Below are positions 488-35,544 of a DNA stretch of 35,544 nt, piece by piece. Both the position numbers and the translations under genes were made by a program. The stretch is from positions 1 to 35,544 of the forward strand of contig JAGXSS010000037.1 in NCBI GenBank assembly GCA_018334055.1. Reading direction: 5' to 3'. The stretch comes from Peptococcaceae bacterium (lineage in GTDB: Bacteria; Bacillota; UBA994). The notes under the pieces are model-generated. The model made no database searches and was not told where the DNA came from. It was given only the letters and a program-made list of their open reading frames with translations. Numbering within the stretch: the first letter of the stretch is position 1; every line of letters begins with the position of its first letter.

Positions 488-1234
488 TTATTGATTATAT
501 TTTTGGCGGATTTCTTTCCAGCATAATCCTGAACAAGCATCTCCTGCCATCGGTGGCGCCTCGGCAGCATCCCTGCCATAAACACCAAGGTCAAAGGAGG
601 TAATATAGGTGCGGGAAACACCGCCGCCTCCCCCGCAGGCAAACGGAATTTCCAGGCCTGCCTCACTCAATTTCTCGGCAATACGGCGAAAGGCCTCCAT
701 ATTAGTCGACATACCGGCTGTCCCGGTCAACATCACGGGCCGGTGCTGCTTGACGGCGTCCACGACTTGTTCCACTGGCACATCACAGCCCAGATCCAGG
801 ACTTCATAGCCCTGCGCGCGCAACAAGGCGTTAACGATTTTTTGCCCCAGGTCATGGATATCTCCCTCTGCTGTATGCGTGATGATCAAGCCCTTTTTTT
901 CCATAGAGCCGCCCATTTTTTGCTCACAGATTTCAATCCCGACTTGCATGGCGTCTGAGGCATTGAGCGTCTGAGGCAGATAGTAAACATTTTCATCCCA
1001 TAGCCTGCTAACATACTCCATGGCCGGTATCAAAGCCCGGTAAATAATCTCCTGCGGCTCTTTTCTATTTAGGGTCCTCTCCAGAGCGCCAGCCATGCTG
1101 CTCGTTTCTCCCCGGATAACAATGTCCATAATCTCCTGCAGGTCCTGATCTTCCACTAGTATCTTCGTTTCGCTCTGCTTACTGGTTACCTTTAAATCAT
1201 ACCGGGTAAAAATTTTACTGTAATCAAGAGCCAC
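488..1234 (-). CDS. mtaC: Methanol corrinoid protein MtaC
   Basis: A 248-residue corrinoid carrier. An N-terminal helical cap (about residues 30-110) is followed by a B12-binding Rossmann domain with the EGDIHDLG motif; His127 is the lower cobalt ligand. The C-terminal block with PVMLTGTAGM, IPFACGGG and LGVYGRDAAEAP is characteristic of MtaC rather than of methylamine corrinoid proteins. It starts at GTG 1234 with AGGGAG eight bases upstream, 14 bases after the sigma-54 activator gene, so the two are probably co-transcribed. It ends in TAA before a strong terminator. It would accept methyl groups from MtaB and hand them to a UroD-fold or MtxH-type second methyltransferase elsewhere in this window. 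Confidence 0.88.
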   Translation of the reverse strand: MALDYSKIFTRYDLKVTSKQSETKILVEDQDLQEIMDIVIRGETSSMAGALERTLNRKEPQEIIYRALIPAMEYVSRLWDENVYYLPQTLNASDAMQVGIEICEQKMGGSMEKKGLIITHTAEGDIHDLGQKIVNALLRAQGYEVLDLGCDVPVEQVVDAVKQHRPVMLTGTAGMSTNMEAFRRIAEKLSEAGLEIPFACGGGGGVSRTYITSFDLGVYGRDAAEAPPMAGDACSGLCWKEIRQKYNQ

Positions 1235-1248
1235 CGCCGCAACTCCCT

Positions 1249-3213
1249 TCAGCTCTTAAGGTTGTACTTGCGGATTTTCCGGTACAGTGTATTGCGCCCC
1301 ACGCCCAGCATACCGGCACAGCGCGTGATGTTCCCGGCGCATACGTCCAGAGCGCGGCGGATGTGTTTGCTTTCCTGCATGTCCAGTGCCAGCGGCGCCG
1401 TATGGTCAGGAGGAGAGGCAGACACCTGCAATAGTTTTTCCGGCAGATGTTCCTCGCACAACTCCGGCGCGTAGTTAGAGGCAAAAACCGCCTGCTCCAA
1501 GACATTCTGCAGCTCCCGTACATTGCCGGGCCAGGGATATTGGAGCAGCCGACAGCCACAGGGGCCGGTGATTGACGGAACAAAGGGCAGCCTAGCCCGC
1601 TGGCTGATTTTCTCCAGGATAAACTCAGCCAACAGCAAAATATCGCCTTCCCGCCTGCGCAGGCTGGGAATATGCAAGTTAATCACGTTAATACGGTAAA
1701 AAAGGTCTAGCCGAAAAGCACCCTCTTCTACCAGAGCTAGCAAGTCACGGTGTGTGGCCACAATAACCCGCACATCCACCGGAATGGGTGTGCGGCCGCC
1801 GAGCCTAGACACGGTTTTCTCCTGTAGCACCCTTAAAAGGTGCGATTGGATTTCCTGAGGCATATCGCCAATCTCGTCAAGGAAAATAGTTCCACCCTGA
1901 GCAAGTTCGAATTTTCCAGGACGACCTTCACGGCTGGCGCCGGTAAAGGAACCGGCTTCATAGCCAAACAGCTCGCTTTCTACTAATTCTCTGGGAATAC
2001 CGGCACAGTTAATGGGCACAAACGGTCCCCGTGCCCGCTCGCTGGCGTTATGGATAGCCTGGGCAAACACTTCTTTGCCTGTGCCGCTCTCTCCCTGAAT
2101 AAGAACGGTGTTGTCAACGCCGGCCGCTCGTCTGGCACCCGCCACCACCTTCTCCAGCAGCGGATGCCTGCCAATAATATCGGCAAAGGTAAAAGCAGCC
2201 TGGTTGCCATACGCTTTGTTGATCAAGCGCCGGATAGCTTTGTCTTCACGCAGCATGACAACCATACCCAGGCTTTTCTCCTGCTCATCTTTCATGACCC
2301 GGGCGCTCGCGGAAAAACGCAAAGTTACGCCCTTGGCCTGTAGTGTAATCTCACGGTCATAAAAGCTGCGCCCCTCCCGCAGCGCCTGCACCAGCACGCA
2401 TTCCTCACCGAACAGCTGGAGGATATTTTTCCCAGACCATTCTTCGTCCCTCATCCCCAGCAGCTTCCGGCCAAGCGTGTTCAGGACACTGATTTTGCCC
2501 GTGGCATCGACTGAAATCAGGCCGGCAGTCATTTCTTCCATGATCGTCGTTACTTCCTTGTAAGATCGCTTCAGGCCTTGATTGGCTTCCATGTAAAGCA
2601 ACTGATTCTCAATGGCTTTTACTGAAGCAACGACCAGTCCAAGCGTATGGGGATGAAAATCCTCGTAAAGCCCCACTATGGCCAAAACGCCGAGCAGCCG
2701 CCCGGCCGGGTTGAAAAAAGGCGCGGCTGAGCCAACTAGGACATGCAGTTCCTTACAGAAGTGCTCCATGGCAAAAACTTGAACGGGCATACGCTCACTG
2801 AGCGCCAGGCCAATGCAGTTTGTGCCGCAGCAAGACTCGCTCCAACTAGCTCCTTCCCGAAAGGGCATATTTCTGGTTTTTTGTAAAATAACAGGATCAC
2901 CAAGCACTTTGACAATAGTTCCCTCTTCGTCTGCCAGCAAAACCATAAAGTCTGAGCCCTTGACCAGATTATGGAGTGTATCTATGAAAGGGCGGCTGAT
3001 TTTCACTAGGGTACGGTAATTTGTTTTACTTTTGGTCTCCACCATGTAGCGCAAATTACCATAGGGGTTTACGCCAAAGCCTAGTGAGCGCCCCCAAGAG
3101 GCGGCAATCAGGTCGCGGACGACGTAAGACTCTATGTCTCCCTGAACAAGAAACCTTTGCCAGGCCTCCCCAATACGGTCGGCGCGCTTGCTCAGAGTCA
3201 AACGTTCCCCCAC
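1249..3213 (-). CDS. Sigma-54-dependent transcriptional activator (AcoR-like, GAF-PAS-AAA+-Fis)
   Basis: About 654 residues from GTG 3213, chosen for the AAAGGTGG ribosome site; the frame stays open to a TTG at 3318 that lacks one. The N-terminus (LSKRADRIGEAWQRF) is typical of AcoR-type activators. A GAF-like sensor follows (FREGASWSE..GTNCIGLAL), then a PAS region, then the AAA+ domain with Walker A GESGTGKE, the sigma-54 loop GSFTGA and Walker B TIFLDEIGD. It ends with a Fis helix-turn-helix (GVGRNTLYRKI). It probably activates the -24/-12 promoter upstream of mtaB through the inverted repeat at 458-480. The ligand is unknown; methanol or a methyl-metabolism signal is an inference from context. 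Confidence 0.85.
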   Translation of the reverse strand: MGERLTLSKRADRIGEAWQRFLVQGDIESYVVRDLIAASWGRSLGFGVNPYGNLRYMVETKSKTNYRTLVKISRPFIDTLHNLVKGSDFMVLLADEEGTIVKVLGDPVILQKTRNMPFREGASWSESCCGTNCIGLALSERMPVQVFAMEHFCKELHVLVGSAAPFFNPAGRLLGVLAIVGLYEDFHPHTLGLVVASVKAIENQLLYMEANQGLKRSYKEVTTIMEEMTAGLISVDATGKISVLNTLGRKLLGMRDEEWSGKNILQLFGEECVLVQALREGRSFYDREITLQAKGVTLRFSASARVMKDEQEKSLGMVVMLREDKAIRRLINKAYGNQAAFTFADIIGRHPLLEKVVAGARRAAGVDNTVLIQGESGTGKEVFAQAIHNASERARGPFVPINCAGIPRELVESELFGYEAGSFTGASREGRPGKFELAQGGTIFLDEIGDMPQEIQSHLLRVLQEKTVSRLGGRTPIPVDVRVIVATHRDLLALVEEGAFRLDLFYRINVINLHIPSLRRREGDILLLAEFILEKISQRARLPFVPSITGPCGCRLLQYPWPGNVRELQNVLEQAVFASNYAPELCEEHLPEKLLQVSASPPDHTAPLALDMQESKHIRRALDVCAGNITRCAGMLGVGRNTLYRKIRKYNLKS

Positions 3214-3330
3214 AAAAGTCACCACCTTTACGACTGCGTTCCGGGGCAATCTTTCCGAATATATAAATCTCCCTAAAAGCTTTGCTTGCGGGAAACGAGT
3301 TTTCTCACCAGACAACACAGCTGCAGATTA

Positions 3331-3373: not shown

Positions 3374-3694
3374 TTAGATAGCGTCACGTACTTTAGCGAT
3401 TTCTGTTTTGAGTACCTCCGGAGCTCTTGCTGCCAGGGCATCCAGCAGTTCCTCATACATGGGAATAATGCTTTCAAAGACGATATCACCGTTGATCACA
3501 ATGGTTGGCAGCACTCTGGCTTTATAGCCAAGGAACTTGTTGATGCCTTCCGCGCCCTTGATATTCCACTCTTTAAACTCAATATGCTGCCGCACATTCT
3601 CCGGCAGAGCAGAAACGGCTTCCAGCATATACTGACAGGCCGCGCACTGCACGGAATCGAGCGTCAGAATATCGACTACCATCTTCTCGCTCAT
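3374..3694 (-). CDS. Thioredoxin-like protein, CxxC form
   Basis: 106 residues from ATG 3694, with GGGGGAG upstream. It has a small thioredoxin/glutaredoxin-like fold: a strand VVDILTLDSVQ, the active site C17-A-A-C20, then the cis-Pro-like segment VLPTIVINGDIVFES near residue 70. It is the paralogue of the UGA-containing gene at 4866-5150: Cys17 here occupies the position of UGA17 there, and Cys20 is shared. It begins one base after the UAG of the UroD-family gene, so translation is probably coupled. A dithiol redox role serving the neighbouring methyltransferase or lipoyl protein is inferred from context. Confidence 0.75.
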   Translation of the reverse strand: MSEKMVVDILTLDSVQCAACQYMLEAVSALPENVRQHIEFKEWNIKGAEGINKFLGYKARVLPTIVINGDIVFESIIPMYEELLDALAARAPEVLKTEIAKVRDAI

Positions 3695-3695
3695 A

Positions 3696-4769
3696 CTACT
3701 CTCCCCCTTTTTTGAAATCCTCATAGGTGAGGTAGCCGCGCGGCACATGGTCAGGATACTTGGCATAAAACTTCTCGTACCACTCTTTGGCTTCCAGGAC
3801 TTTATCTACGTTCTCCACGGGAACGTCATAGGGCATGTCTCACCCAGGGGCAAAAGTGTACCCGGTAAGGCCGCCGGCGGCGAGGCTGACTATGGCGTCT
3901 TCTCGCGGGTCGACTATCCCCAGGAAGAGAGCCAGCGTCAGTTTCAGATTGCCTCCAAAGCCCAGCCCATATTTAAGAGCCAAATCCCGCACATAGTTAA
4001 TGTTCAGCTGCTCATCGATAGCAAACCCGTGCGTCCCAATCTTGCAGACTTCCTCCAACGATTTGGTCGCATCACCGCAGATAAAGAAGCTGGAGGTTCG
4101 GCCGGCATCGTGGATGACACTGATGGCCTCCTGACAGGCTGGCGTCACAAACTCCCGGAAAGTTTCCGCCCTAATCTGCGAAGCTACCGGGTCGACAATG
4201 CCAATAATCTCGCAGCCGATATCCCGGTAAATGCGTGCTGACTCGGCGCAGACCTTGGAACTAAATTCCAGAATCTCCCTGGCCAAAGGCTTGTTCTTCA
4301 CCACATCGGTAAAGATCTTGACCCCTCGCAAATGAGACGCCAGAGTCAGTGGTCCGCACAGCAAACCAAGTAAGGCCCAATCCCCCTTCTTTTCCATCAC
4401 CTGCCGGCCGGCTTCCACAATCACCGGCCAGCGACCATCCTTAGCTGTGGGCACTCTCAGGTTTGCCTCGGCCAGCGTCTTGTCGGCCAGCGGGTGGCCG
4501 GTGACAGCCGGCGGGTTGTCAGGGTACCATCTGGCCTCACAGCCCATGGACATCGCTTCCACGTTCAGGTCAAACACGAGCGGCAGACCATCAACTTTGT
4601 ACCGCTCGGCAGCGTAGAGAACTCCTTTGGCAATCAGGTCCGGATTCTGCAGGTAAACATCGGACTTTTCACCGATCAGGTAAGCACAGTGTACGCCAGC
4701 ATAAGGCAGCCACGGTGCTTGGGGCGTCTTTTTGCCTCGATAGGCATCAATCAGCAACTGCTTACCCAT
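3696..4769 (-). CDS. UroD-fold methyltransferase (MtaA/MtbA-like) with an in-frame UGA, probable selenoprotein
   Basis: A plain reading stops at TGA 3842-3840 after 309 residues, ending TGYTFAPG. Other family members in this window continue GC-D/S-I there (WPGCDIWPDA, APGCSIAPGS). Reading UGA as selenocysteine gives APG-U-DMPYDVPVENV and a normal helical C-terminus ending at TAG 3696, 357 residues in all, a usual family length. The distance from Cys231 to Sec310 is 79, the same as Cys240 to Cys319 in the MtbA-like protein at 22681-23709. A SECIS-like hairpin follows the UGA. The usual HxC ligand motif is FIC here, so the metal site has Cys and Sec but lacks the histidine. The start is ATG 4769 behind AAAGGAGG. 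A role as second methyltransferase with a novel active site is inferred. Confidence 0.8.
3808..3826 (-). promoter_or_regulatory. Putative bacterial SECIS element for UGA 3842-3840
   Basis: Minus-strand stem ACGTTC / GAACGT with the 7-base loop CCGTGGA, beginning 14 bases after the UGA, so the loop starts 20 bases after it. This fits the spacing and the G-containing apical loop expected of a SelB-binding bSECIS. The hairpin lies inside the continued reading frame, as in other bacterial selenoprotein genes. Confidence 0.6.
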
Positions 4770-4865: not shown

Positions 4866-5150
4866 CTACAGGCGGGAACGGATGGCCTCAAACAATTCCG
4901 GTTCTGACGGAATTACGCTCTCAAAAAATATTGCCCCATTAATAGCTATGGTAGGAAAAGTTTTGATGCCAAGTTCATTGTTACGCCTGATACCTTCCGG
5001 TGTGCGTAAATCATGGCGGCAGATTTCCACTGCGTCCGCCAGCTCGCCCAACATTTCAGGAATAGCCTGTACTGCTTCCAGCAGATAAACACAGGGAGTT
5101 CATTGCACAAAGTCGTTGATAAAAATTTCCAGCAGCACTTTTTTATCCAC
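4866..5150 (-). CDS. Thioredoxin-like UxxC protein, probable selenoprotein
   Basis: A 94-residue frame from GTG 5150, with AGGAG seven bases upstream, is interrupted only by TGA at codon 17 (5102-5100). Around it the sequence reads FVQ-U-TPC-VYLLEAVQAIPE. The paralogue at 3374-3694 reads SVQ-C-AAC-QYMLEAVSALPE with its cysteine also at residue 17. UGA therefore replaces the first active-site cysteine, giving a UxxC redox motif as in known thioredoxin-like selenoproteins. The rest (FPTIAINGAIFFES) matches the paralogue and would be pointless if translation ended at UGA. A SECIS-like hairpin follows. It lies 10 bases after the GcvH-like gene. A conventional prediction would miss the first third, starting at ATG 5054. 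Confidence 0.82.
5066..5095 (-). promoter_or_regulatory. Putative bacterial SECIS element for UGA 5102-5100
   Basis: Minus strand: outer stem CCTGT / ACAGG, an internal loop, inner stem CTGC / GCAG and apical loop TGGAA with GG. The apical loop begins 20 bases after the UGA, within the usual bSECIS window. Confidence 0.6.
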
Positions 5151-5160
5151 TGTCTCTCTC

Positions 5161-5640
5161 CTACCTGTTTCTGCGCCTCACCCGGGCCCCGGCGCCACAA
5201 TGGTCGCCTTCGCCCCCAAGCAGCGCCTCCAGATATTGTTCAGCCGTCAGGAAAATTTTGGCCGTATCCAGTCCCTGGCACTGTACAGTGAACAGGGACT
5301 CTTCATAATACCGCTCGTCGAGGATTTTTACCCCCTCGCCCACCAGTTTGTCATTTATGGCTGTAATTACCCCCGCTACCGGCATGGTCACGTTAATCAT
5401 GGCCTTGTACGTCTCGACAAAGAAAATGCTGTCGTCCACGTCTACCGCATCGCCTGGGAAAGCGGCATACTCCAGATACTTAAAACCGTTTACCAAGATA
5501 GCGCCGGCGTGGCTGACCCCGAACCGGTAAACATCCTCCCCGGCCGGCTCCACCCAAAGATGCTCCTGCAAAAAATACAGATACCGCTCTTCAATGGTGA
5601 CGCTCTGACCGTAAAACTGGTCGCAGGTTATAAGCGGCAT
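5161..5640 (-). CDS. GcvH-like lipoyl-carrier protein
   Basis: 159 residues from ATG 5640, with GGGAGG upstream. The core matches the glycine cleavage H protein: EHLWVEPAGEDVYRFGVSH, then the lipoylation motif VETYKAMINVTMPVAG with Lys79 as the probable lipoyl site. The C-terminus is extended by a glycine/arginine-rich tail with one cysteine. No gcvP or gcvT is nearby. The gene sits between two DGC-domain proteins and two thioredoxin-like proteins, which suggests a redox or one-carbon carrier role other than classical glycine cleavage (inference). It stops at TAG 5163-5161, overlapping the ribosome site region of the UxxC gene. Confidence 0.78.
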   Translation of the reverse strand: MPLITCDQFYGQSVTIEERYLYFLQEHLWVEPAGEDVYRFGVSHAGAILVNGFKYLEYAAFPGDAVDVDDSIFFVETYKAMINVTMPVAGVITAINDKLVGEGVKILDERYYEESLFTVQCQGLDTAKIFLTAEQYLEALLGGEGDHCGAGARVRRRNR

Positions 5641-5670: not shown

Positions 5671-6273
5671 CTACTCCAAACCGCAAAGCCGCGGCCTAGA
5701 TGCCGGCCGGTCAACCCCTTCAGCAACCATCACATACCCGACTTCCCCCGGGATATTGTTGATAAAGGCGCAAATCTCCGTCTCCCCCTGCCTGACGCGC
5801 TGCGGCTCGTAGCGATAGTCCGCAGCAAGCATCTCCAGCGCCATGTTTCTGGCCCGCACGGCTACTTCTGTGGCCAGATTCTTCCCCGACTCACTGGGTA
5901 CCCGGCGCTCTGTCCCAGGGGCAAGTCTGACTTGTTTCTTAAGCCCGGCACAATCGCACAAGAATGTCGCCGGCAGTTTGGCAATAGGCGGTATCAGCAG
6001 TCGGGCCACCGGCGTTAAACCCAGTAGACGGAAAAGATTGGAGCCGCACTGGTAGCCGCAACCGTCAATAATGATGGTCGGGTTTTTTTCCACCAGTTCC
6101 ACCTCGTCCGGCAGGCCGTTAAGCAGCCTCTGCGCGTCGACAATTTCTGTTTTCCCCGGCAGCAAGTCCTCGGCAATCAGGTAGGCAGCGTAACGCGCCA
6201 CGCTGGAGAGAACAAAGCCCACACCTCCGCAGGGGTAAATAGCCACCTTTTGTACCTCGCCCACCTTACTCAC
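5671..6273 (-). CDS. DGC-domain putative zinc-binding protein (second copy)
   Basis: About 200 residues. The PCGG motif near the N-terminus, YAAYLIAEDLLPG and IIIDGCGYQCG are the hallmarks of the DGC domain, a family of putative zinc-binding proteins of unknown function. The C-terminal YVMVAEGVDRPA is shared with the neighbouring paralogue (YVTVAEGIYRPA). The start is uncertain: GTG 6273 overlaps the end of the preceding gene by eight bases, and a GTG a few codons later (VAIYPCGG) is possible. It ends in TAG 5673-5671, and the frame continues without another stop into the GcvH-like gene, so UAG read-through would produce a fusion. It probably acts with the redox/lipoyl cassette. Confidence 0.7.
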   Translation of the reverse strand: MSKVGEVQKVAIYPCGGVGFVLSSVARYAAYLIAEDLLPGKTEIVDAQRLLNGLPDEVELVEKNPTIIIDGCGYQCGSNLFRLLGLTPVARLLIPPIAKLPATFLCDCAGLKKQVRLAPGTERRVPSESGKNLATEVAVRARNMALEMLAADYRYEPQRVRQGETEICAFINNIPGEVGYVMVAEGVDRPASRPRLCGLE

Positions 6274-6811
6274 TCTCCCTGTAAAGAAAATGGGGCATAG
6301 CGGCAGGTCGGTAAATACCCTCCGCTACCGTGACATAAGCGAACGGATCCGCCGGCACATCCTCCTGCGCCAGACTGGCACGCGTTTTTATTTTTTGTCG
6401 AGGAAAAACATAATCCACCGCCAACAGCGCCCGGCCAACAGCGGCCGCTCTTTTCGCCACCGCCTCCGCCAGTTGCTGCGCTTCCGGTTCCAGCTCGCGC
6501 CGTGAGGAGCCGTACCCGAGACCGGTGGCAGCGGCAATATCCGGGATAAAAATCCTCGCCGCCGGTGTCACCCCTGCCCGGAACAACAGGTTGGTGCCGC
6601 AATTTTCCCTGTGGCAGTCAATGACTATCGTGGGGTAATCCTCCACCATCACCAGATCTTCCTCTACCCCGCGCAGAAAAGCCGGCACGCACAAAATCAT
6701 CGTCTGACGGGGTAGTAGCTCTTCGTTAACAATGTAGGTGGCCAGACGAGCTACCGTAGACTCCGTCTTCTTGATACCACCGCAGGGGAAAAGACAAACA
6801 CGCTCGGCCAT
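6266..6811 (-). CDS. DGC-domain putative zinc-binding protein (first copy)
   Basis: 181 residues from ATG 6811 behind GGAAGAGGG. It is paralogous to the next gene: FPCGGIKKTESTVARLATYI, then IVIDCHRENCG in place of DGC...CG, then YVTVAEGIYRPAAMP. The first glycine of the DGC triplet is missing here (D-C-H), but the two cysteines spaced to bind metal remain. It is the first gene of the DGC-DGC-GcvH-Trx(U)-UroD(U)-Trx cassette and follows the radical SAM gene by 66 bases. Tandem paralogues suggest a heterodimer. Function unknown. Confidence 0.65.
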   Translation of the reverse strand: MAERVCLFPCGGIKKTESTVARLATYIVNEELLPRQTMILCVPAFLRGVEEDLVMVEDYPTIVIDCHRENCGTNLLFRAGVTPAARIFIPDIAAATGLGYGSSRRELEPEAQQLAEAVAKRAAAVGRALLAVDYVFPRQKIKTRASLAQEDVPADPFAYVTVAEGIYRPAAMPHFLYRESE

Positions 6812-9340: not shown

Positions 9341-10807
9341 TTAATCTTGGTTCTCGGCCGTAAGGACGATGTCGCGTAATTTGTTCTGGACCGTAGCTGG
9401 CAAAGGAGTAGGCTTATGTTTTTGCAGAATGGTCCGCGCTTCTTCTTCCGCTCTTTGCGCCCAATCCTTCCCTCCACGGTTTTGCCAGGCGCCACGCATG
9501 CGCCGATCAATGTTTCTCGGTTTGGACTGTTCCTTGGCCATATACTGTCTGGTATGTTTTTGGGCAAGGAAATCTTTACCGGCACCTACCGTTTTGATTA
9601 CCTCGACCGCCAACATCTCGTCATTAACGTCAATCCCCGCCACAGCCCTTTTCACCATTTTGGCCATTTCGGCATCCATGAGGAGCTGAGCGAAAGAAAA
9701 GGTCATGCCCAACTCCAGCATACCCAGACCGTAAATCAGGTTGGCCCCAGCTAAGGCCGGCAGCAGCGCTGTGATGGTCTTTTCGTGACCCGCCTGCGCG
9801 TCGGGCAGCTTGCTATCCGCCTACCCTCCCGCCACATAACTGGGCAACATGTAATAGTGAGACAGTTCAGCCACTCCGGCGCTGATCATTCCCAGTTCCG
9901 GAGCTCCTACCGGCGCCGTGGCAAAGGTCAGGTCAAAAGTAGTAGTGGAACTACCATAGATCATGGGCGCCCCCTTGCCAGCCAATTGGTGAAGTACCAT
10001 CCCGCCAAGAACTTCAGCATTGTGGGTTACTAAGGTACCCGCAAGCGAAATGGGAGCGGAAGCGCCGGACATGGCCATGGAAAGAATGTTGACCGGGATA
10101 CGTGCCCGGGCACATTCGATAATAATTTCGGCGGTGTGGGTATGCAGTTGGAGCGGACTTGTCGGGCAAACCAGCGCCGAGATAATCGGCCTTTCGCGCA
10201 ATTTATCCATTCCGCCCACAATTGCCGCGCCCATCTCAAAAAATTTTTTGGCCCCGGCACCTCCGGTAAGGTCAATGTGCTGGCAATGCTTTGTCGTGTT
10301 GGACAAAAACGCCTCCGCCTCATGTAGGTCGATAGCCCGTTCCGGCACATCCCTCGCGACAACGGCACTGGAATAGATATCCACCTCCTCCAGAGCGTCA
10401 CAGGCCAGCGCGGTGTTGGCTACATCTTGCTTGTTTGACTCGCGCAGCTCTCCGGTTAGCGGGTCAATGACCATCACACCGGCGCCAAAATTGGTAAAGC
10501 CCACCCGGCGACCTTCCAGGACTGTGTCGTGCCGCGGATCTCGGCCAGCCAGCAAAATGCTGCTCGGGGCACTGCTAATAGCCTCTTCGACTAGGAAAGC
10601 CGGGATCTTGACTAGGTTTGTTTCCTTGTCCACATAACAACCGCTAGCTGCGTAAAGCTCCAAAGCCTCGTCACAAAACACCATGATGCCGTAGCGCTCC
10701 AGCACTTCCAGCGTAGCTAGGTGAATGGCCTCCAACTCATCCCTGCTGAAGAGGCACAGCCCCATCCCGGCAATTTGGCTAAAACCGGCCTTCAACGACC
10801 TGCTCAT
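9341..10807 (-). CDS. mttB: Trimethylamine:corrinoid methyltransferase MttB with in-frame UAG (pyrrolysine)
   Basis: 488 residues when TAG 9823-9821 is read as pyrrolysine at position 329; the Methanosarcina enzyme has it at a very similar place. The bases around it encode LPSYVAGG-O-ADSKLPDAQAGHEKT, the conserved MttB active-site segment. Without read-through, a 328-residue fragment and an orphan C-terminal frame (LLPALAGANLIYGLGMLELGMT) result. The start is ATG 10807 with GGTGAG upstream, 17 bases after mttC. The product demethylates trimethylamine to dimethylamine and methylates MttC. It ends in TAA, unlike mtmB and mtbB, which end in TAG. Confidence 0.95.
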
Positions 10808-10824
10808 TCTCTCACCCCCCATTT

Positions 10825-13983: not shown

Positions 13984-15354
13984 CTAATACTTTAAGCCAA
14001 GCTTGTTCAGAATTTGCCAAGCTTCCTGATAAACGCTTACGTATTCGGGACTGGGCAGCAATTTTACAACATCATAGCATTCATTAAAGGTCTTGCCCTT
14101 GGGAAAATTTTTGTAGTTTGTCTCGTACATGCCTACCAGCTCATCCAAGATGCGGTTCACTTTTTCTGTTTCCATGCCGGCCACAGCGTGAGCTACTTCA
14201 CCCATCATCCGCGCTTCCATAGCCGTCGTATAGTTAGTGGCTACACCTTTGGCTGAAGCAACGCCGGAGAGTAGTTCCCGGCCACTGGCAGTATCAGTGA
14301 TGGCCTGAGCGGCAGTTTCCAGCAGGCACATTACGGTGCAAGGACCCGCTAAAGTATAGTACTGGTTTGCCAGTAAAAAGGGGGTGTTCTCCTCGATGGC
14401 TCGTGCACAGTGGCCGGCTACCGCTAACGACTCCCTGGCCGTGGTAATCCCCCACCGTACATGAATCGGACCATCGAGGTGGTAATGGGCCTGTGTCATG
14501 ACGAAGGCTGTCAGATGGGTGGCCACATCGACAATTGTGGTTTCCTCCAGTCCACCCGCATAGCCTCCGAAGATGGGCATCTGCTCGCACATGATGACAT
14601 CGCCAGCCAAAACATAGTGAGCGACAAAAGATAGTGCACCTACATCTATCTTCAGCTCGTTTAACTGGGACACTTCATGAGAGTCGGACGCCCGCATACC
14701 GCCGGGAAAATCGGCCGAAATCACACCGGCGGCGCTAAGTGATGTTTCATTCCCCTACAAAGCCATTCCCGGCCGGCCAGCCCTAGCCTGAGCGAGTCGA
14801 ACCATCATGGCCTCCGACTTGACAGCAGCAATCTCAAAAGGGGTATTGGGAGAGGGGTCATAGCCATTAATTGTTTGCAGAACACCGTCAACGATCGTGT
14901 CCACGATGGGTTCCCTAGCATAAGCTTCATGCATGGCAATAAAATCCTGCTCGGCCACCGGCGCACCGGTTGGTCCGCCCTGGATAATGGGCGGAGTTTT
15001 TTCGTCAAACCTGCGCGCTTTCAGTGTCACAGCATCTCTTCCCTCACCGAGAATCACCCTGCGAGGCGCCGTTTTAATAGTTCTCCAGACTTCCTCTTCG
15101 GTAAATTTGATGACCCGCTTGGTGTCCATGCAGTAGATGCCGCATTCCACCAGCATCTCCATGCCCGCCCGAAAAATATTGTTAATCAACTGCCCATCTG
15201 TAGGGATAATCTGCTTTTTGTCTATTTTAAGGCCATATTTTTCTTTTAGGCGGCGGGCTGTTTGCGGGATAATCCTGCTATCCCATTCGTTCTCATCTAC
15301 GCGCGGGCCGGTCTTCGCCCGTGCATAGGACTCAAAAACGCCTACTCCTGCCAC
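13984..15354 (-). CDS. mtmB: Monomethylamine:corrinoid methyltransferase MtmB with in-frame UAG (pyrrolysine)
   Basis: 456 residues from GTG 15354, placed by AGGAG eight bases upstream; this puts TAG 14757-14755 at codon 200, close to the pyrrolysine 202 of Methanosarcina MtmB. The flanks read AGRPGMAL-O-GNETSLSAAG, the conserved active-site segment, and continue through GGMRASDSHEVSQLNELKID and EQMPIFGGYAGGLEETTIV. The N-terminal part has IPTDGQLINNIFRAGMEMLVECGIYC. It methylates MtmC from monomethylamine and releases ammonia. Its terminal stop is also TAG (13986-13984), so UAG has two meanings in one gene. Confidence 0.95.
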
Positions 15355-15379
15355 ATTACGCACTCCTTTCTTTTGCTTT

Positions 15380-16024
15380 TTACCTAAACAGTTCTTTGGC
15401 AACCACCACAGCTTCCGCCGCATTATCGGCGTAGCCGTCGCCACCGATCTTGTCAACCCACTCTTTGGAAACGGGAGCTCCTCCGAACATGCACTTGACC
15501 TTGTCGCGGAGGCCCATCTCTATTAATCCTTGGACAATATCCCTTTGCGCCGGCATGGTGGTAGTCATCAGCGCGGAGCCGATCACCATGTCCACGTTTA
15601 GCTCCTTGGCCTTTTGGACTACTAGGTCCACAGGAACATCCCGTCCAAGGTCAATGACCTCAAAACCATTGGCCGCCAACAGCGTTTTGACGATATTCTT
15701 CCCGATATCGTGAATATCGCCCTGCACTGTATGCACAATCACTTTGCCGATTCTTGTCTTGCCGATTTCTTCCGCAGACAAGCCTTGGACTAGGATAGCC
15801 ATGGCATTTTGAAAGGCCTCGGCCGCGAAAAGAATTTGTGGCACGTAAAGCTCTCCCTCATCGAACAGGTCGCTGATCGTCTTCATGGCTGGCGCCAAGC
15901 CTTCATTAATAGCCACAAAAGGGTCTAAGCCGGCCGCTAAAGCTTCCCGTGCTGCCTCTTCAGCCGCGCTGACATCCTGCTCCTCCACAGCTCGCTGCAG
16001 TTTTGCCAAAATACTTGCACTCAT
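15380..16024 (-). CDS. mtmC: Monomethylamine corrinoid protein MtmC
   Basis: 214 residues from ATG 16024 with AGGAGG eight bases upstream. A helical cap precedes the B12-binding domain with QGDIHDIGKN and His105, then IGSALMTTTMPAQ and GGAPVSKEWVDKIGGDGYADNA. It is placed between mtbB and mtmB, immediately upstream of its partner. It carries the methyl group from monomethylamine; it could also exchange with the MtbA-like proteins of this cluster. Confidence 0.92.
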   Translation of the reverse strand: MSASILAKLQRAVEEQDVSAAEEAAREALAAGLDPFVAINEGLAPAMKTISDLFDEGELYVPQILFAAEAFQNAMAILVQGLSAEEIGKTRIGKVIVHTVQGDIHDIGKNIVKTLLAANGFEVIDLGRDVPVDLVVQKAKELNVDMVIGSALMTTTMPAQRDIVQGLIEMGLRDKVKCMFGGAPVSKEWVDKIGGDGYADNAAEAVVVAKELFR

Positions 16025-16073: not shown

Positions 16074-17477
16074 CTAGAAGAAAGTTTTAGACCTGAACCG
16101 TTTTACAGTACTAATTTCAAGATCCAACAACGCCGCAATTCTAGCTTTGGCTTCCATTCCTTTCGCGCTGCCTGGGACAGACGTAATGATGCCAATATCC
16201 AGGTCCTCCCTGATTTCACGCATCACTTGTTCGTCTGAAAGGTCAGTCACAGAAATTTTGAGTCTTTCCGCCACGTATTTTTTGGCTGCAGGCAATTTCA
16301 TCTTACGATGCATTTGCATCCGGGCCACCAGATCTCCAGCGGTACGGATGCCCCCCATGCCCGAGGCCATAACGTGTGCGATCGGCATACCGAGCGGGTC
16401 ACCAACACCAATCTACAACCCGTCCACCTTAGCGATTTGCACCAGCGCCTTAGAAGCTCTCGTGGTGCTGTCAATAGGCGGCGTTTCAAACACAGGTACT
16501 CCGCCCACACCCATGCCCACATTGACATGAATGGGAATCGAAGACACGGCCACAGTATGTTTAACAAAGGTTACCGCTCTGGCTACATTCCAGGGCATTG
16601 ACCTGCTGGTGTTAGTGTTAATTACCGGCCCAAAGATGTCCGCGCCGGCTTCTTCCACCACCTTAACTTGCTGGTGCGGGTACATACCCGCCAGCCTCTG
16701 ACCATTAAAGAAAAGCTCGCCATGCATACCAAGGATAAATTCACCGGCCATTCCTACTTCAATGGCCATCTCCGGCATCGTTTTCTTGATTTCGGCCACA
16801 GCATTCAGGGTAGCGTAAAAGTCCGCGTCACCTGCCGCTGCCGTCGTATCAAAATTGATGCCCTCACAAGCAACTTCATGTAATTTGCTGGAGACATACA
16901 CCATATCTCTGGTAGCATGGCCGGCCGCCTCCAGCTGCGCCTCTCTGGCCTCCCGAACCTTACCCTGAGGCAGCAAGTCCGAAGGGTTGCCGAAAGGTCC
17001 GTCGGGACGGTAGTAAGTACCTAGATTCGGCATTGCTCCGTAAAACAGCGGGACGATTGTCATCATGGCCGCCGTTTCGTATTCCTGCATTTCCATGGAA
17101 ATAATTGGCTTGACTGGCTTGAAGCTGTAGTCAATATGCCCGAGCTCCATGGTGTCGGCGGCAAAGGCACGCTCATGCACCAAGATACCTTGCAGACGGC
17201 TGAGGGGAATCCCCACGCCACTGTTAGCCTGGTCGCCCATCAAGCGCAGGGTGCCGATATCATGGGTCAGAACGACTTCTTCACCGGGAGCAACGCCGAC
17301 TATCCGGTTTTTATCCAGAAAAATTTCCAGCAATTGCTCCAGCTCGTCAGAGCCAAGCTCAGGTATTTTCCCTTTTTGGGCCGCGTCATGCGTTCCGGCC
17401 AGCAGGGCGTCCCGCACCTCCGACACCGACATTTGCACCCGTTCGCCGTCACCCATCCTAGTCAATATGTTGGCCAA
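16074..17477 (-). CDS. mtbB: Dimethylamine:corrinoid methyltransferase MtbB with in-frame UAG (pyrrolysine)
   Basis: 467 residues from TTG 17477 (GGAGG eight bases upstream; GTG 17486 is in frame but overlaps that ribosome site). TAG 16415-16413 falls at codon 355, within one residue of pyrrolysine 356 in Methanosarcina MtbB, in [21 protein letters not shown]. The N-terminal half contains [15 protein letters not shown] and [19 protein letters not shown] typical of MtbB. It demethylates dimethylamine to monomethylamine with MtbC as acceptor. The terminal stop is TAG 16076-16074. Read-through there would add about 36 residues before TGA, overlapping mtmC in another frame. Confidence 0.95.
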
Positions 17478-17490
17478 CAGACGCACCTCC

Positions 17491-18176: not shown

Positions 18177-18248
18177 TGGAGGAGAGTCCGGGAGTCAAAC
18201 CCGGCTGCGCAGATTTAGAGTCTGCGTGATCTTGCCGATCAACCCTCC
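18177..18248 (-). tRNA. pylT: tRNA-Pyl (CUA anticodon)
   Basis: 72 nucleotides with all known oddities of tRNA-Pyl. There is a 7-bp acceptor GGAGGGT / ACTCTCC with one G-U pair and a single base between acceptor and D stem. The D stem is GATC / GATC with a 5-base loop. The anticodon stem is a 6-bp CGCAGA / TCTGCG with loop CTCTAAA, giving anticodon CUA. The variable loop has only 3 bases (CAG), the T arm is CCGGG / CCCGG, and CCA is encoded. The stretch GACTCTAAATC...CAGCCGGGTTxGA closely resembles the Methanosarcina tRNA. The discriminator base is U, not the usual G. It lies between the amt-like gene and mtbC and is probably processed from the operon mRNA. Confidence 0.95.
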
Positions 18249-22680: not shown

Positions 22681-23709
22681 TTACCCCGCTGCTTTCACGG
22701 CGCCGCTGACCATAGCCCGTAAATTGTCAAGCGGCGACCCGGGCGCGATGGAGCAGCCGGGAGCCAGCAAATCGTAGCCGGCATGTACAGCAGCGATGGT
22801 AGCCTGTTCTACTTCCTCCGGCCGCCCGCTATACAGCGTAGCAACCGCGTCAATGCCACCGATCAGCGCGATAAAGCGCTCATACTTCCGTAACTTCTCC
22901 TTGGCTTCCGCTACATTGACTTTAGGCTCCACACTGATAGCTGTGGCGCCGGTTCGCGCAATATCATCCATAATCGGGTCCAGCTTACCGCAGATATGCA
23001 AGATTGTCGGCACGGCAGACAGCGCCTCTATCTGCCGCCTTTCCCACTCAAAGACGCAGGTTCCGTAAATCTTCGGGCTAATGATGTCTAAGGAGGCCAT
23101 CATGTCCTCGATACAGATAGCATCAGCCCCGGCCTCGATAAGTGCCTTGCCTAACACTGTTCCTGCCTGTTCTGACAGATCAAGATAAGGCACTAGCCTT
23201 TCCGGGTACTTAAACGCCGTTTTCAGAATGTCAGTAATCCCGACTAGGCTGGCAGCAATGCTGTAGGGCCCAATAATGCCGCCGATAACGGCTACCTTAT
23301 CGCCCAGCCCCTGCTTTAATATTTTAACGGCCTTAATCAATTCCGGGATTCTGCCTAATTCCAAAAAGTTTTCCGGCAACGGCGGCACAGGACTGCCGAT
23401 TTTATAAGGATGCTCAACAACGCTGGGGATGCCTTCCTTGCCAGCAAATTTAAGCTTCGCTCCCAAAGCCTCCGCCTCTATGGTCTGGCAAAAGGGCACC
23501 CGTACAGCGTCAAAGCCAAGGACAACGTAGGCGCCCGTAGCTAACTTGGCCATTTCCTCCGCCTGACAATGCGCTTCCGGCCAAAAAGCCTGTAATTCCT
23601 CCATTTGATCATAGGTAGCAGTCTGGTCAGCACAAAACACTGGTGGACGATCAGTTTCCCGACCATTCAATTTGGCCAGGAAACGTTCCCTGCCTAGCAT
23701 ACCGGACAT
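22681..23709 (-). CDS. MtbA-like methyltransferase (UroD fold), copy 1
   Basis: 342 residues from ATG 23709 (AGGGAG eight bases upstream). TIM-barrel uroporphyrinogen decarboxylase family with zinc ligands His238 and Cys240 (LHICGK) and Cys319 (APGCSIAPG), as in MtbA/MtaA, so it is a methyltransferase and not a true decarboxylase. In methanogens MtbA moves methyl from corrinoid protein to CoM. In a bacterium the acceptor is likely tetrahydrofolate or another thiol (inference). It is a more distant relative of the two other UroD copies upstream. It lies directly before pylSn and behind a candidate promoter at 23826-23854. Confidence 0.83.
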   Translation of the reverse strand: MSGMLGRERFLAKLNGRETDRPPVFCADQTATYDQMEELQAFWPEAHCQAEEMAKLATGAYVVLGFDAVRVPFCQTIEAEALGAKLKFAGKEGIPSVVEHPYKIGSPVPPLPENFLELGRIPELIKAVKILKQGLGDKVAVIGGIIGPYSIAASLVGITDILKTAFKYPERLVPYLDLSEQAGTVLGKALIEAGADAICIEDMMASLDIISPKIYGTCVFEWERRQIEALSAVPTILHICGKLDPIMDDIARTGATAISVEPKVNVAEAKEKLRKYERFIALIGGIDAVATLYSGRPEEVEQATIAAVHAGYDLLAPGCSIAPGSPLDNLRAMVSGAVKAAG

Positions 23710-23825
23710 CTTTTTCACTCCCTGCTGATATATTTGATTTGCTCGTATCGTTCAAATGAGAGACCACCCAATAAAATGAATTTTCAGAAATCGTTGTCGG
23801 AAACCTAACGCCTTCCTTGATGCTG

Positions 23826-25912: not shown

Positions 25913-27853
25913 TTATGGTATATTTTCCAAAATATGCTGAATACTAGGGAACCTATCCTTGCTGTGCGGGAAAGCCATGGCCGCAATAAATTGTTCTAGG
26001 AAATCAGACTCGGTGGCCGTCTCCACAAATTCTACAAACCCGGCGACCTCCCTAGCCTCCTGACGTTTAGCCAAGCTGAGCAGTGCCAGTTTGGCGCCAT
26101 CGCCGGCAGCGTTACCCACTGCCTGGACATGATCAAAGTCACAATCCGGAAACATACCCATGACCATGGCGCTTTCCTTGTTGATATAGCTACCAAAAGC
26201 GCCAGCCAAGGTAACGCTGGCAGGTTTACTCACGCCCAGCTTTTGCATTAAGTACCTAGCGCCCACATAAAGTGCCGCCTTGGCCAGCAACACAGCATGG
26301 ACATCCTTCTGCGTGACCGTGATATCTTGCCCGATAGAGGAATCACCCGCGTAGCAGAGCACGTATTCCATTTTGCCGTCTGCGCCCCTCCGTACTCTGG
26401 AGGCGGAAGCTTCCTTGTTAAAGCGTCCACTGCTGGAAATAATCCCCGCTTTGAACATTTCCGCAATGACATCAATGATGCCGGAACCACATATGCCCCT
26501 GGCGATAGGTTCATCGCCTGTTTCGTACCAGTCGTCCTGGCCGATGATTTTAATCTTCGGCTCTTTGTCTCCCGGAGCAATCTTCACGCGTTCGATGGCC
26601 CCTGGCGCCGCGCGCATGCCAAATTTGATTTGCGCTCCCTCCAGTGCCGGTCCAGTGGCGCAAGAAGTGCATAGCAGGCGCTCCCGGTTGCCGAAGTTAA
26701 TTTCCCCATTGGTGCCAATGTCGATAATTAGCATCATACGATCCTGTTTATGGGGCTCTTCAGCGATCAGGACTCCCATGTTGTCCGGACCAACAAACCC
26801 GGCCGCCACCGGCAAAGTATGGACAAAAGCACCCTTGCCAATCTGAATTCCCAGATCTCTGGCCTTAAAATTCATGCTCGTCTTAAAAACCGGGGCAAAC
26901 GGTGCCCTCCCCATGAACTTTGGATCAATCCTTAGCAGGATATGGTGCATCACGGTATTGAGCACCAAGACCATGTCCACCACATCCACGCGGGTGATAC
27001 CCGCCATTTCCGTCAGCCGCTCCACTAGGGTATTCACACCGTCGATGATGGCCATGCTTAGCTTTTCCAGACCATCCTCGTTCATCATACCGTAGGTAAT
27101 GCGAGAAAGGACGTCCTCACCATAGCGGATTTGCGGGTTCATCAGCGAAGTTGTGTGAGGGACCTCGCCGGTTTTGAGGTTACATAGATAGGCCACCACA
27201 GTAGTAGTGCCTACATCAATGGCAATTCCCCACAGTTCATCCCAGTGACCCGGAGTGACTTTAATGATTTCTTTCCCTTCCCAGACCGTCACCGTCACTT
27301 TCCATTGTTCAGAGCGGACAGCTACCGGCAGGCTTTGCAGCACCGTGTAGTCGATGCGCAAATCTACCGGTAGGCCGTATTTTGCGGCCAGTCCCGCCTG
27401 GAGGCGCGCATAGTCGTCAGTCTGGTCATCAAGCGTTGCCGGATCCATCTCAAGATAGTAGTTTCTTGCCGCCGGGTTCAGTTCAAAAATCCGCTCCCTA
27501 CCAGTCTCTAAAATAACCTGTTTGGCGCCACGCGACTCCTCCGGCACAAACACCAAGACATCGCCCCGTACGCCGGCACAACAACATAGACGATAGTTGT
27601 CAGCCAGCTCTTGAGCCTTTAAGAAGGCCTTTTCTTCTTCCATCAGGGGGGACAAATGCGTCACCCGCGAGTCGATAGCAGCCTTCTGAAAAACACCCTC
27701 CTCAACTTTTATTTTGCATTTACCGCAAACCCTAGCTCCTCCGCAAGGGGCCTCAATGTCCACGCCTAACTCCCGTGCCGCCTCCAGCAAGGTTTTCCCT
27801 TCCGCAACCGATCCTCGCCGACCGGATGGTTGAAAGATAACGGTATGTTCCAC
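25913..27853 (-). CDS. Reductive activator of corrinoid enzymes (2Fe-2S + ASKHA ATPase, RACE/RamA-like)
   Basis: 646 residues from GTG 27853 (GGAGG six bases upstream). The N-terminal 2Fe-2S ferredoxin domain has Cys37, Cys43, Cys46 and Cys91 (IEAPCGGARVCGKCK ... YRLCCCAG). A linker follows, then the ASKHA-type ATPase: GIAIDVGTTTVVAYLC (phosphate 1), LIIDIGTNGEINFG and VTLAGAFGSYI. Such proteins use ATP to reduce inactive Co(II) corrinoids to Co(I). It has the standard domain order, in contrast to the paralogue at 29090-32527, with which it shares FQPSGRRG at the N-terminus. Confidence 0.9.
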   Translation of the reverse strand: MEHTVIFQPSGRRGSVAEGKTLLEAARELGVDIEAPCGGARVCGKCKIKVEEGVFQKAAIDSRVTHLSPLMEEEKAFLKAQELADNYRLCCCAGVRGDVLVFVPEESRGAKQVILETGRERIFELNPAARNYYLEMDPATLDDQTDDYARLQAGLAAKYGLPVDLRIDYTVLQSLPVAVRSEQWKVTVTVWEGKEIIKVTPGHWDELWGIAIDVGTTTVVAYLCNLKTGEVPHTTSLMNPQIRYGEDVLSRITYGMMNEDGLEKLSMAIIDGVNTLVERLTEMAGITRVDVVDMVLVLNTVMHHILLRIDPKFMGRAPFAPVFKTSMNFKARDLGIQIGKGAFVHTLPVAAGFVGPDNMGVLIAEEPHKQDRMMLIIDIGTNGEINFGNRERLLCTSCATGPALEGAQIKFGMRAAPGAIERVKIAPGDKEPKIKIIGQDDWYETGDEPIARGICGSGIIDVIAEMFKAGIISSSGRFNKEASASRVRRGADGKMEYVLCYAGDSSIGQDITVTQKDVHAVLLAKAALYVGARYLMQKLGVSKPASVTLAGAFGSYINKESAMVMGMFPDCDFDHVQAVGNAAGDGAKLALLSLAKRQEAREVAGFVEFVETATESDFLEQFIAAMAFPHSKDRFPSIQHILENIP

Positions 27854-27915
27854 AATAGGCCTCCTTGCCCACAAGCCTGGCGCGGATGTTCAGGCAATTT
27901 CTACGTGCCTATCCT

Positions 27916-29089: not shown

Positions 29090-32000
29090 CTATTTCGCAG
29101 CTTTACCAGGAAGAAGGTTTTCTATATGAGGAAACTTATCCTTCATATGAGGCAGCCACATGGCTTCCGAAAAAACCTTGTCAAAATCTGGTTCTACGGT
29201 TAATTCCACATATTCCACTTGTCTTGCCATAATATCAGCTTCTACTCTTTTATCCACGTTGAGCAGGGCTACACGAGCCCCATCGCCTGCCGCATTACCC
29301 ACAGAATAGATATTCTCTAATTCGCAACTGGGGAAAAGCCCAAGGACAGCGGCAGATTTCTTGTCAATGTAACTGCCGAAAGCTCCTGCCAAGATGACCT
29401 TGTCTACTTTGTCCACGCCTAAACGACGCATCATCAGTTTGGCGCCAGCATACATCGCCCCTTTAGCCAGCTGGATATTCCTAACATCATCCTGGCAAAC
29501 TACAATATCCTCTCCAATGGAGGTTTCCTTTGCCCAGGCAATTACGAACTCTGCGCCGCCTTCATCAATACGGAAACGAGGGTGCTGTAGGTCCTTCTTA
29601 AAACGACCGGTTCGGTCTATAATGCCTGCCATAAACAATTGCGGCACTACATCAATTATGGCCGAACCACAGATTCCATTAGCCCCTATATTGTCCACCT
29701 CTGTATTCCACTCATGCCTCTCGATCACCTTGAAGCGCACCTCTTTGGTCTCAGGGTCTATCTCTATCTTTTCGATAGCGCCCGGCGCGGCACGGCACCC
29801 AAACCTGATCTCCGCCCCCTCAAACGCCGGGCCTGTGGCGCAAGATGAAGAAATAAGCTTTTTCCGGTTGCCGAGGATTAACTCCCCATTTGTGCCAATG
29901 TCAATGATCAGCTCAATAGCATCTTGCTCATAAGGCTTCTCGGCAAGGAGCACCCCTACATTGTCAGCGCCAACGAAACCAGCCTCGATGGGAAGGACAT
30001 GAATATAGGCCCCCGGAGCTATCTTGACACCTAAGTCACGGCACTCCACAACCGCCGCTGTTTCGGCAAACTGGCTGCAGTTTAGGCACCGCTTGGATTC
30101 TTCAGCAGCTATTTCCTCCCTGGAATCCCCAGCAGAGCCCTTTCCCTGCTCCAGTTCAAGCAGTGGCACAACCCTTCTGGCTACCTTCTCCAGCCCCGTC
30201 TTAGGAACATTTTCCACTCTCTTAAGTGGGGCGGGCCGGCCTCTTTTTAAATCTACCCCTTCAAGATGAAGCCCTATGGAGATGGCTGCTTGCTGCCCGG
30301 CGGCAATAGATTTTATAACATTGGAGGCGCCTAAAGCCACATCACCACCGGCAAAAATCCCTTCCATACTTGTCTGTAAGGTCTCGGGGTCAACAGAGAT
30401 GGTTCCTTGGCTAGTGTATTCGAGCCCCGCTGGCAGCGTTGCTTTATCCACTACCTGGCCGATGGCCACGATTACATGACTGACATCTAGATTAAACTCC
30501 GACCCTTTGATGGGGATGGGACGCTGTCTACCGCTATCATCAGGTTCACCTAACTCCGTGCGCACACATTGAAGGCCGATAACCTGACCGTCTTTGGCTA
30601 ATATCTTGACTGGTGCCGCCAGAAGATGCAGCTTTACACCTTCCCGCTCAGCCTCCTCCACCTCGGTCATTATAGCTGGCATTTCAGCACGGGAGCGCCG
30701 GTAGATAAGCACAACCTCGTCTGCCCCCAGGCGCTTGGCTACCCTAGCGGCATCTACGGCAGCATTGCCGCCACCGATCACGGCAACGCGTTTCTTAAGC
30801 TCCACGTTTTCTCCGGAATTTACCTTCCTCAGCAAATCAAGGGCGCAAATTACCCCGCTAGCCTCCTCATTAGGAATAGACATCTTTTGGGGTATCCCGG
30901 CGCCGGTAGCGAGGAAAACAGCCTTATAGCCCTGGTCAAAAAGGCTCTTAACATCTTTTTGTGGGCTGCTCGTCTTTATCTCCACACCTAGCTCTTCAAT
31001 GAAGTTAATCTCGTTATCCAGCATCCCCTTAGGCAGGCGGTAATCAGGAATACCATAGCGCAACAGGCCGCCAGCCTTAGCGGCAGCCTCAAAAACGGTA
31101 ACTGGGCATCCCTTTCTGATCAGGTCATAGGCGCAAGCCAAACCTGCTGGACCGGAGCCGATAATAGCTACTCGGTCTTCCCTTTTCTTCACCACGGGGG
31201 TGGCCTTTGCTCTGCCCGCTCCCAGCTCATACTCAGCCAAGAAACGGTGTGTGGAGCAGATGGACAGCGGCTCGTCAAGCTGCCCTCTTTCACACTCTAC
31301 CTCACAAGGATAGGTACAAACATAGCCGCAGACCCCAGAAAAGGGCATGGCTCTCCTTACCAGCTCAAGGGCTTCACTAAATTTGCCTTGGGCCGTAAGG
31401 TAGAGAAAGTCTTGACCATTAACGCCGGCCGGACAGGCAACTTGGCAAGGCGGATAGCCACCTTTATCAGCAGCCTCAGCCTCCGGAGGAACCTTAAGGC
31501 CAAGCTCACGAGCCTTAAGGTCTAAGGAATGGTGGATGGCTGGAGGGAAAGGACTCATGCCAATATACAAGGGATCAATATTTAGGAAAAGATGGTGCAT
31601 ACAAGTATTGCCCACTATCACCATGTCCACAATATCCTCGCGCTTTATGCCTGCCTGTTCCGCCGCTTCCCCGGCGATTTCATTGAGCCCGTCAATAATG
31701 GCCTTGTTCATATGCTCAAGACCATCTTTATTGCTCATATGGTAGGTAATGCGCGACATGACATCTTCACCGTAAATCACCTGTGGATTCATCATAGAAG
31801 CAGTTGTTACCACTGTACCATCGGTAAGATCGCAAAGATACCCAGCCACCGTGGTGCTGCCTACGTCTACTGCCAGACCATAGCATCTTTTAGTTACTTG
31901 TCCGGCATCTACCTTGATAACCTCTTTATCCTTCCATACCGAGATAGTTACCTTCCAGTTACCCTCACGCACCACATTTTGTAAACTTATGAGCGCTTGA

Positions 32001-34386: not shown

Positions 34387-34488
34387 TCTTTCACCTTCGT
34401 TCCGAAAATTAACTTTCTTCATCACTGATTTTTTCGAATTTCATGGTAACAGCAGTAGGCAACATGCCATCTAACTCAATCTGAACAG
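33999..34488. repeat. Direct repeat, copy A (within the intact XRE gene and its leader)
   Basis: About 490 bases, nearly identical to 35055-35544 at an offset of 1056 bases. It covers the 5' part of the XRE gene and its upstream region. Only a few base differences are visible (for example one Leu/Pro change), so the duplication is recent. Confidence 0.9.
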
Positions 34489-35442: not shown

Positions 35443-35544
35443 TCTTTCACCTTCGTTCCGAAAATTAACTTTCTTCATCACTGATTTTTTCGAATTTCAT
35501 GGTAACAGCAGTAGGCAACATGCCATCTAACTCAATCTGAACAG
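35055..35544. repeat. Direct repeat, copy B (runs to the window edge)
   Basis: Matches 33999-34488 at +1056 bases and is still matching at the last base, so the duplicated unit continues beyond the window. A second HPP copy is predicted just outside. Confidence 0.88.

Follow-up and report, generated by a model that had tools for sequence, protein, structure and literature searches.

A conserved in-frame UGA at a position aligned with a zinc ligand of MtaA marks an apparently undescribed selenoprotein family in the UroD/MtaA superfamily

A gene of the UroD/MtaA superfamily in a Peptococcaceae bacterium carries an in-frame UGA, which raises two questions: is this codon read as selenocysteine (Sec), and what would Sec do in such a protein? 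The gene was studied within a 35,544-nucleotide stretch of DNA (JAGXSS010000037.1), the whole of which is referred to as the window. It lies on the minus strand at 3696..4769, with an ATG at 4769 and a TAG at 3698-3696, and its product, named UroD-U herein, has 357 aa. The 357-codon open reading frame contains a single in-frame UGA, codon 310 (3840..3842, minus strand), with 309 codons before it and 47 after. The Pfam URO-D profile (PF01208) matches residues 3-327 with 157.3 bits against a gathering score of 23.9, and the match therefore crosses the UGA. An earlier note on this DNA, which had not given the strand, placed the UGA in the column of a conserved cysteine and described a 47-codon continuation with a family-like C-terminus. 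Both points hold, the second through the reading frame, the motif APG-U-DMPYDVP, and a C-terminus that is conserved past the UGA. The distance of 79 residues between Cys231 and Sec310, said to equal that in an MtbA-like protein of the window, is indeed the same in that protein, which spans 22681-23718. A standard gene caller would truncate UroD-U genes 47 codons early and lose the putative active-site residue.

Homologs were first sought in 200 related genomes. Members of the close subfamily share 34-46% identity; column 310 holds UGA in two more of them and Cys in the others. A wide scan of one genome per species (84,980 species) identified at least 569 relatives, and the best 80 loci were retained. 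Column 310 is UGA in 74 of these best 80 and Cys in four (L063, L068, L113, and L126); the remaining two end before the column. The motif around the UGA is nearly invariant in the same set. Because these loci are a best-hit sample, the counts are no measure of frequency in nature. Most belong to Desulfobacterota and Bacillota (Desulfofundulus, Desulfotomaculum, Pelotomaculum, and Dethiobacter), and some come from actinobacterial MAGs. When 398 relatives of Desulfofundulus were searched with a profile, the members recovered had one TGA or no stop at all, and never another stop codon. One genome (G212) encodes both a form with UGA and a form without it. A tree of 110 rows recovered a clade with support of 100 that includes every Sec form, and Sec and Cys were exchanged at least six times in this tree. 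Downstream of the UGA, synonymous differences outnumber other differences. A search for homologs with Cys in this column and the same downstream extension had been proposed as a check, and its outcome is as predicted: the column holds Cys or UGA, and the frame is conserved beyond it. One mark of a selenoprotein gene, an in-frame UGA where relatives have a conserved Cys, is therefore present.

A second mark is a SECIS hairpin that follows the UGA directly. A SECIS-like hairpin was located at 3808..3826 (minus strand) by folding, homolog comparison, and covariation. It begins at base 14 after the UGA and has a 6-bp stem (ACGUUC/GAACGU) and a loop, CCGUGGA, that contains a G, just as the earlier note had described. 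Taken alone it is weak (-5.7 kcal/mol, z of -0.63 against shuffles), but it stands out across homologs. When codons were shuffled among synonyms, leaving the protein unchanged, the mean z was -1.74 for 74 distinct Sec forms, 0.04 for 12 Cys forms, and 0.14 for a neighboring control region of the Sec forms. The Sec forms thus carry a SECIS-like hairpin that exceeds the demands of protein coding, and the Cys forms do not. Codon choice follows the same division: where a valine stands six codons after the UGA, all 71 Sec forms encode it with GTT, but only three of nine Cys forms do so. Among 19 main-type sequences, mostly Desulfobacterota, a 7-bp stem is paired in 94.7% of cells and three stem pairs have changed on both sides; none of 500 shuffles scored as high, nor did any slid register. 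Because the sequences in these tests share ancestry, the values should be read as indications and not as probabilities. No consensus structure emerged from all 30 sequences together, because the stem register is not the same in hairpins of the Bacillota and Desulfobacterota types; the Desulfobacterota sequences on their own do fold. Through the comparative signal and covariation, this second mark is also met.

The source genome (2.38 Mb, 96% complete) encodes the full machinery for Sec, all on one contig (C68), as the check for selA, selB, selC, and selD required. A tRNA-Sec was found with 75.5 bits (cut-off 47) and selB with 371.8 bits in a family search. The adjoining selA, on the upstream side of selB, was recognized from its open reading frame without a family search, and selD itself carries an in-frame UGA. 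In other genomes, selB was above cut-off in 25 of 28 tested. Two of those lacking it (G030 and G218) have only Cys forms as far as seen (L056 and L126), and the third (G211) is a fragmentary 1.3-Mb MAG that holds pieces of selB. Neither of the findings that were to refute the Sec reading, an absence of sel genes or homologs without the Cys/UGA column and extension, was obtained. We have very little doubt that UGA310 is read as Sec.

UroD-U apparently represents a conserved, undescribed selenoprotein family inside a known superfamily. No UroD/MtaA selenoprotein is present among the 119 prokaryotic selenoprotein families and subfamilies tabulated in a 2026 review (PMC13188914), no selenoprotein model in NCBIfam (June 2026) matches UroD-U, and a text search of the literature returned no report of one. 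This agrees with the earlier remark that no MtbA-type enzyme with Sec has been described. Priority remains uncertain, as the families of Zhang & Gladyshev 2007, Haft & Gwadz 2023, and Haft & Tolstoy 2025 were covered only via NCBIfam and the review, which cites these papers and tabulates their families. UroD-U genes have a wide distribution among sulfate reducers and other anaerobes. The selenoproteins known so far are mostly regarded as either redox enzymes or enzymes that contain molybdenum, tungsten, or nickel. A conserved catalytic-site Sec on a corrinoid methyltransferase scaffold would be a new chemical use of selenium.

The predicted structure of UroD-U has a mean pLDDT of 92.9 (AlphaFold). 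By both sequence and fold, the nearest solved structure is MtaA of Methanosarcina mazei (4ay7; TM 0.84/0.89, using the predicted structure). Residues His246, Cys248, and Cys325 of the MtaA chain (the zinc ligands His237, Cys239, and Cys316 in native numbering) align with Phe229, Cys231, and Sec310. The central claim about this gene, that Sec occupies the site equivalent to the third MtaA zinc ligand, is supported by the homologs, the sel genes, the hairpin covariation, and the absence of selB from two Cys-only genomes; metal binding by this Sec is not shown. In UroD-superfamily S-methyltransferases the zinc sphere is His-Cys-Cys, according to Kountz and Balskus (PMC10418091). Within the clade that holds the Sec forms, Cys231 and Cys/Sec310 are each conserved in 86 of 86 rows, and residue 229 is Phe in 77, Tyr in six, and Leu in three; His occupies this position in 24 of 24 rows outside. 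The replacement of HxC by FxC, noticed previously in this one protein as a change of two ligands, is real, and loss of the His is the rule across the whole clade. Six further residues (Glu253, His146, Trp20, Tyr57, Tyr181, and Ser226) are invariant inside the clade and rarer outside. Judged by alignment, Sec310 occupies what was a zinc-ligand position; a present metal is not shown, and with a metal ligand lost, zinc binding is unproven. In the predicted secondary structure, Cys231, Glu253, and Sec310 lie at or just past the C-terminal ends of successive barrel strands, from which we infer that they probably surround the active site.

Genes near UroD-U were clustered over 81 loci, consisting of the best 80 of at least 569 and the window. 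The most frequent neighbors encode a COG0523/CobW GTPase (51/81), a corrinoid reductive activase (48/81), a corrinoid protein (46/81), and a thioredoxin-like CAAC protein (45/81), with further thioredoxin-like proteins in 29 and 22 loci. A second, MtaA-like UroD with an intact HxC...C is found in 30 loci, an MtrH-like methyltransferase in 29, DUF6951 in 26, DUF2284 in 25, and a thioredoxin-reductase-like flavoprotein in 22. A corrinoid protein, an activase, and a second methyltransferase encoded nearby were taken to indicate a corrinoid system, and all three are present. A thioredoxin-like gene adjoins UroD-U in nearly all loci, and in six (L026-L028, L052, L053, and L056) the thioredoxin-like domain is fused to the UroD-U C-terminus. 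In the window, the CAAC protein is separate and is encoded by the next gene downstream (3374..3694, minus strand). The same strand encodes an MtaC/MtbC-like methyltransferase corrinoid protein at 488..1234 (PF02310 and PF02607; NCBIfam MtaC and MtbC below cut-off) and a sigma-54-dependent regulator at 1249..3318 (PF00158, HTH_8, GAF, and PAS); activases and an MtrH-like gene lie ~20-28 kb from UroD-U. In the window, as in loci of Bacillota and actinobacterial type, the cluster also includes two DGC-domain proteins and a lipoyl GcvH-like protein. In the window these are, all on the minus strand, the GcvH-like protein (5161..5640; PF01597 and PF00364 above cut-off), which is a conserved neighbor in Bacillota/Actinomycetes-type loci, a DGC-domain protein (6266..6811; PF08859, 34.9 bits, cut-off 27), and a DGC-domain-like protein (5671..6273), identified by homology to its DGC neighbor and by a U/C column. 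Some Bacillota clusters also contain major-intrinsic-protein genes of aquaglyceroporin type, at L070:9778-10617 by Pfam and at L059:14481-15317 by sequence similarity only, which might hint at a small uncharged substrate. Elsewhere in the window, one activase (29090-32527, minus strand, 1145 residues) has its activase domain interrupted, at about residues 357-829, by an inserted GltD-like NAD(P)/FAD domain, and another (25913-27874) lacks this insert. Two HTH regulators (33613-34425 and 35038-35481, minus strand) are near-identical over their N-terminal 140 residues and flank an HPP-like membrane protein, reflecting either a recent duplication or an assembly edge effect.

The cluster encodes further selenoproteins. 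Directly upstream of UroD-U, and absent from the earlier note's finding, is a 94-residue thioredoxin-like selenoprotein with a UxxC motif, FVQ-U-TPC (4866..5150, minus strand; GTG start at 5150, UGA at 5102-5100). Its U column is kept in relatives from five loci (L058, L059, L060, L104, and L127), and UxxC thioredoxin-like proteins are frequent in other loci (34 stretches). The downstream thioredoxin-like gene has UxxC (LQ-U-PAC) in the actinobacterial-type loci L065, L069, L072, L087, and L133 and CAAC elsewhere. Near the cluster in seven loci (L066, L067, L070, L071, L077, L106, and L137) is a thioredoxin-like paralog with TDQ-U-ASG, which has U and no second Cys of the CxxC type. DGC proteins with an in-frame UGA (TFV-U-DC) occur at L060:5901-6485 and L127:6137-6715, where the window protein at 5671-6273 has Cys (TFL-C-DC), and may constitute a third family of selenoproteins in the cluster. 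These multi-selenoprotein clusters would mark an unexplored anaerobic methyl pathway that is testable in cultured carriers such as Desulfofundulus thermosubterraneus (L070) and Desulfatitalea alkaliphila (L076). Another form of recoding was observed in the window. Three methylamine-methyltransferase-like genes (9341-10822, 13984-15456, and 16074-17486, minus strand) each have one internal TAG, a tRNA-Pyl is located at 18177-18248 (minus strand), and look-alikes of pylB, pylC, pylD, and pylS are nearby, placing pyrrolysine and Sec decoding together within one 35-kb stretch.

The gene set corresponds to a methyl pathway (substrate methyltransferase, corrinoid protein, activase, and tetrahydrofolate transfer), and UroD-U is taken to be a corrinoid-linked methyltransferase on this basis. 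The account that we favor as a whole, with somewhat more confidence than doubt, is a Sec-decoded methyltransferase of this kind with a Sec/Cys pair reduced by a thioredoxin-like protein; methyl transfer, reduction, and substrate class are inferred. UGA310 would be decoded with the aid of the hairpin just downstream, and the zinc-site triad His-x-Cys...Cys would have become Phe-x-Cys...Sec (or Cys) in the clade. UroD-U would most likely be the substrate-handling methyltransferase of the corrinoid system, in which Sec310 and Cys231 may activate a soft heteroatom or take the methyl group themselves. The methyl group would pass between the substrate and the MtaC/MtbC-like corrinoid protein and then to tetrahydrofolate by the MtrH/MtgA-like transferase, and the adjacent or fused thioredoxin-like protein is inferred to keep the Sec/Cys pair reduced. 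Methylarsenicals, methylselenides, and methyl thiols are guesses at the substrate that rest on neighbor types only. There is no biochemistry behind this account, the match to MtaA/CmuA is below cut-off, and the window's own hairpin is modest by itself; moreover, methyl transfer could really be the task of the HxC...C UroD of 30 loci, in which case UroD-U would do something else. Metal binding by Sec310 is not shown: Phe, Tyr, or Leu stands in for the His clade-wide, and given the linked or fused thioredoxin-like proteins, a redox or nucleophilic role is about as likely as a metal-ligand role. A more specific proposal, which we regard as speculative, is that a selenolate replaces zinc chemistry in a corrinoid methyltransferase whose site is metal-free or re-liganded: in a methylated metalloid or chalcogen (e.g., a methylarsenical or methylselenide), Sec310 would attack or hold the heteroatom that bears the methyl group, and a dedicated selenothioredoxin relay would regenerate Sec310. 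If true, the cluster would be an unknown anaerobic demethylation pathway.

Zinc may instead have been retained. Here Sec310 and Cys231 would still hold the metal, a clade-specific residue (Glu253, His146, or His27) would replace the lost His, and Sec would only tune Lewis acidity, so that the enzyme would be a corrinoid methyltransferase that depends on zinc and has a softer site. This reading and the favored account, which leaves the metal open, overlap. Zinc retention is a serious possibility that falls a little short of even, resting on the complete retention of Cys231 and Cys/Sec310, on Glu253 and His146 being invariant inside the clade and rare outside, and on the 51 loci with COG0523 GTPases, a metal-chaperone-type family that clusters with the zinc-dependent mtaA/mtaB genes (PMC2770081). 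It has to contend with the replaced His, with the existence of zinc-free methyltransferases in the UroD superfamily (CdmB, PMC13222342), and with fused or dedicated thioredoxin-like proteins that point to redox chemistry. The latter would suit a selenol-dependent reductase on a UroD scaffold, without methyl transfer, in which Sec310 and Cys231 alternately form and open a selenenylsulfide, with reduction coming through the lipoyl protein and thioredoxin-like partners. The adjacent or fused partner, the several partners with UxxC, the thioredoxin-reductase-like gene of 22 loci, the GcvH-like protein of the window, and a lipoate-ligase-type gene in L059 are consistent with it, but it is doubtful because these clusters also encode a corrinoid protein, an activase, and an MtrH-like transferase, which favor methyl transfer. 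A genuine stop or an error, leaving a pseudogene or a 309-residue protein, has only the in-frame stop codon in a draft contig to recommend it and is practically untenable, being ruled out by 74 other loci that share the UGA and have conserved sequence after it, by the predominance of synonymous differences downstream, and by the sel genes.

The favored Sec-dependent, corrinoid-linked methyltransferase was compared to known systems. The best NCBIfam matches of UroD-U are MtaA/CmuA-type methyltransferases, every one below cut-off. Scores were 122.4 bits for MtaA/CmuA (TIGR01463, cut-off 235), 99.6 for the MtaA model (cut-off 400), 89.4 for the MtbA model (cut-off 600), and 43.9 for HemE (TIGR01464, cut-off 302.95), which excludes UroD-U as a member of MtaA/MtbA or HemE. 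To our knowledge, coenzyme M is not expected in the bacteria that carry UroD-U. The SAO and Tso clusters (PMC13188914) likewise have several selenoproteins together in a specialized pathway, but of other protein families, with no UroD/MtaA member listed. The Mlp proteins of type 1 mlp gene clusters, for which methyl-sulfur or methyl-selenium chemistry has been proposed, resemble UroD-U in combining a UroD-superfamily protein with a corrinoid protein and an activase in selenium-using genomes (PMC10418091). Their sites are His-Cys-Cys, with exceptions in some Mlp1, whereas UroD-U fails the His-Cys-Cys test, and the consulted part of that source describes no Sec in Mlps. The chloromethane methyltransferase CdmB is corrinoid-dependent, belongs to the UroD superfamily, and is zinc-free (PMC13222342), so methyl transfer remains possible where the zinc site has been lost; CdmB differs in that no Cys/Sec pair is at issue and its sequence is distant from UroD-U (profile-only match). 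The closest likeness is to MtaA/MtbA (4ay7/4ay8), with which UroD-U shares the fold, the ligand columns 231 and 310, the spacing of 79, and the corrinoid context. Apart from scoring under the family cut-offs, UroD-U lacks the His-x-Cys...Cys zinc triad of MtaA/MtbA, having Phe229-Cys231-Sec310, and its clade is set apart by Sec/Cys310, by Phe, Tyr, or Leu for the zinc His, by an invariant His146 and Glu253, and by a thioredoxin-like partner.
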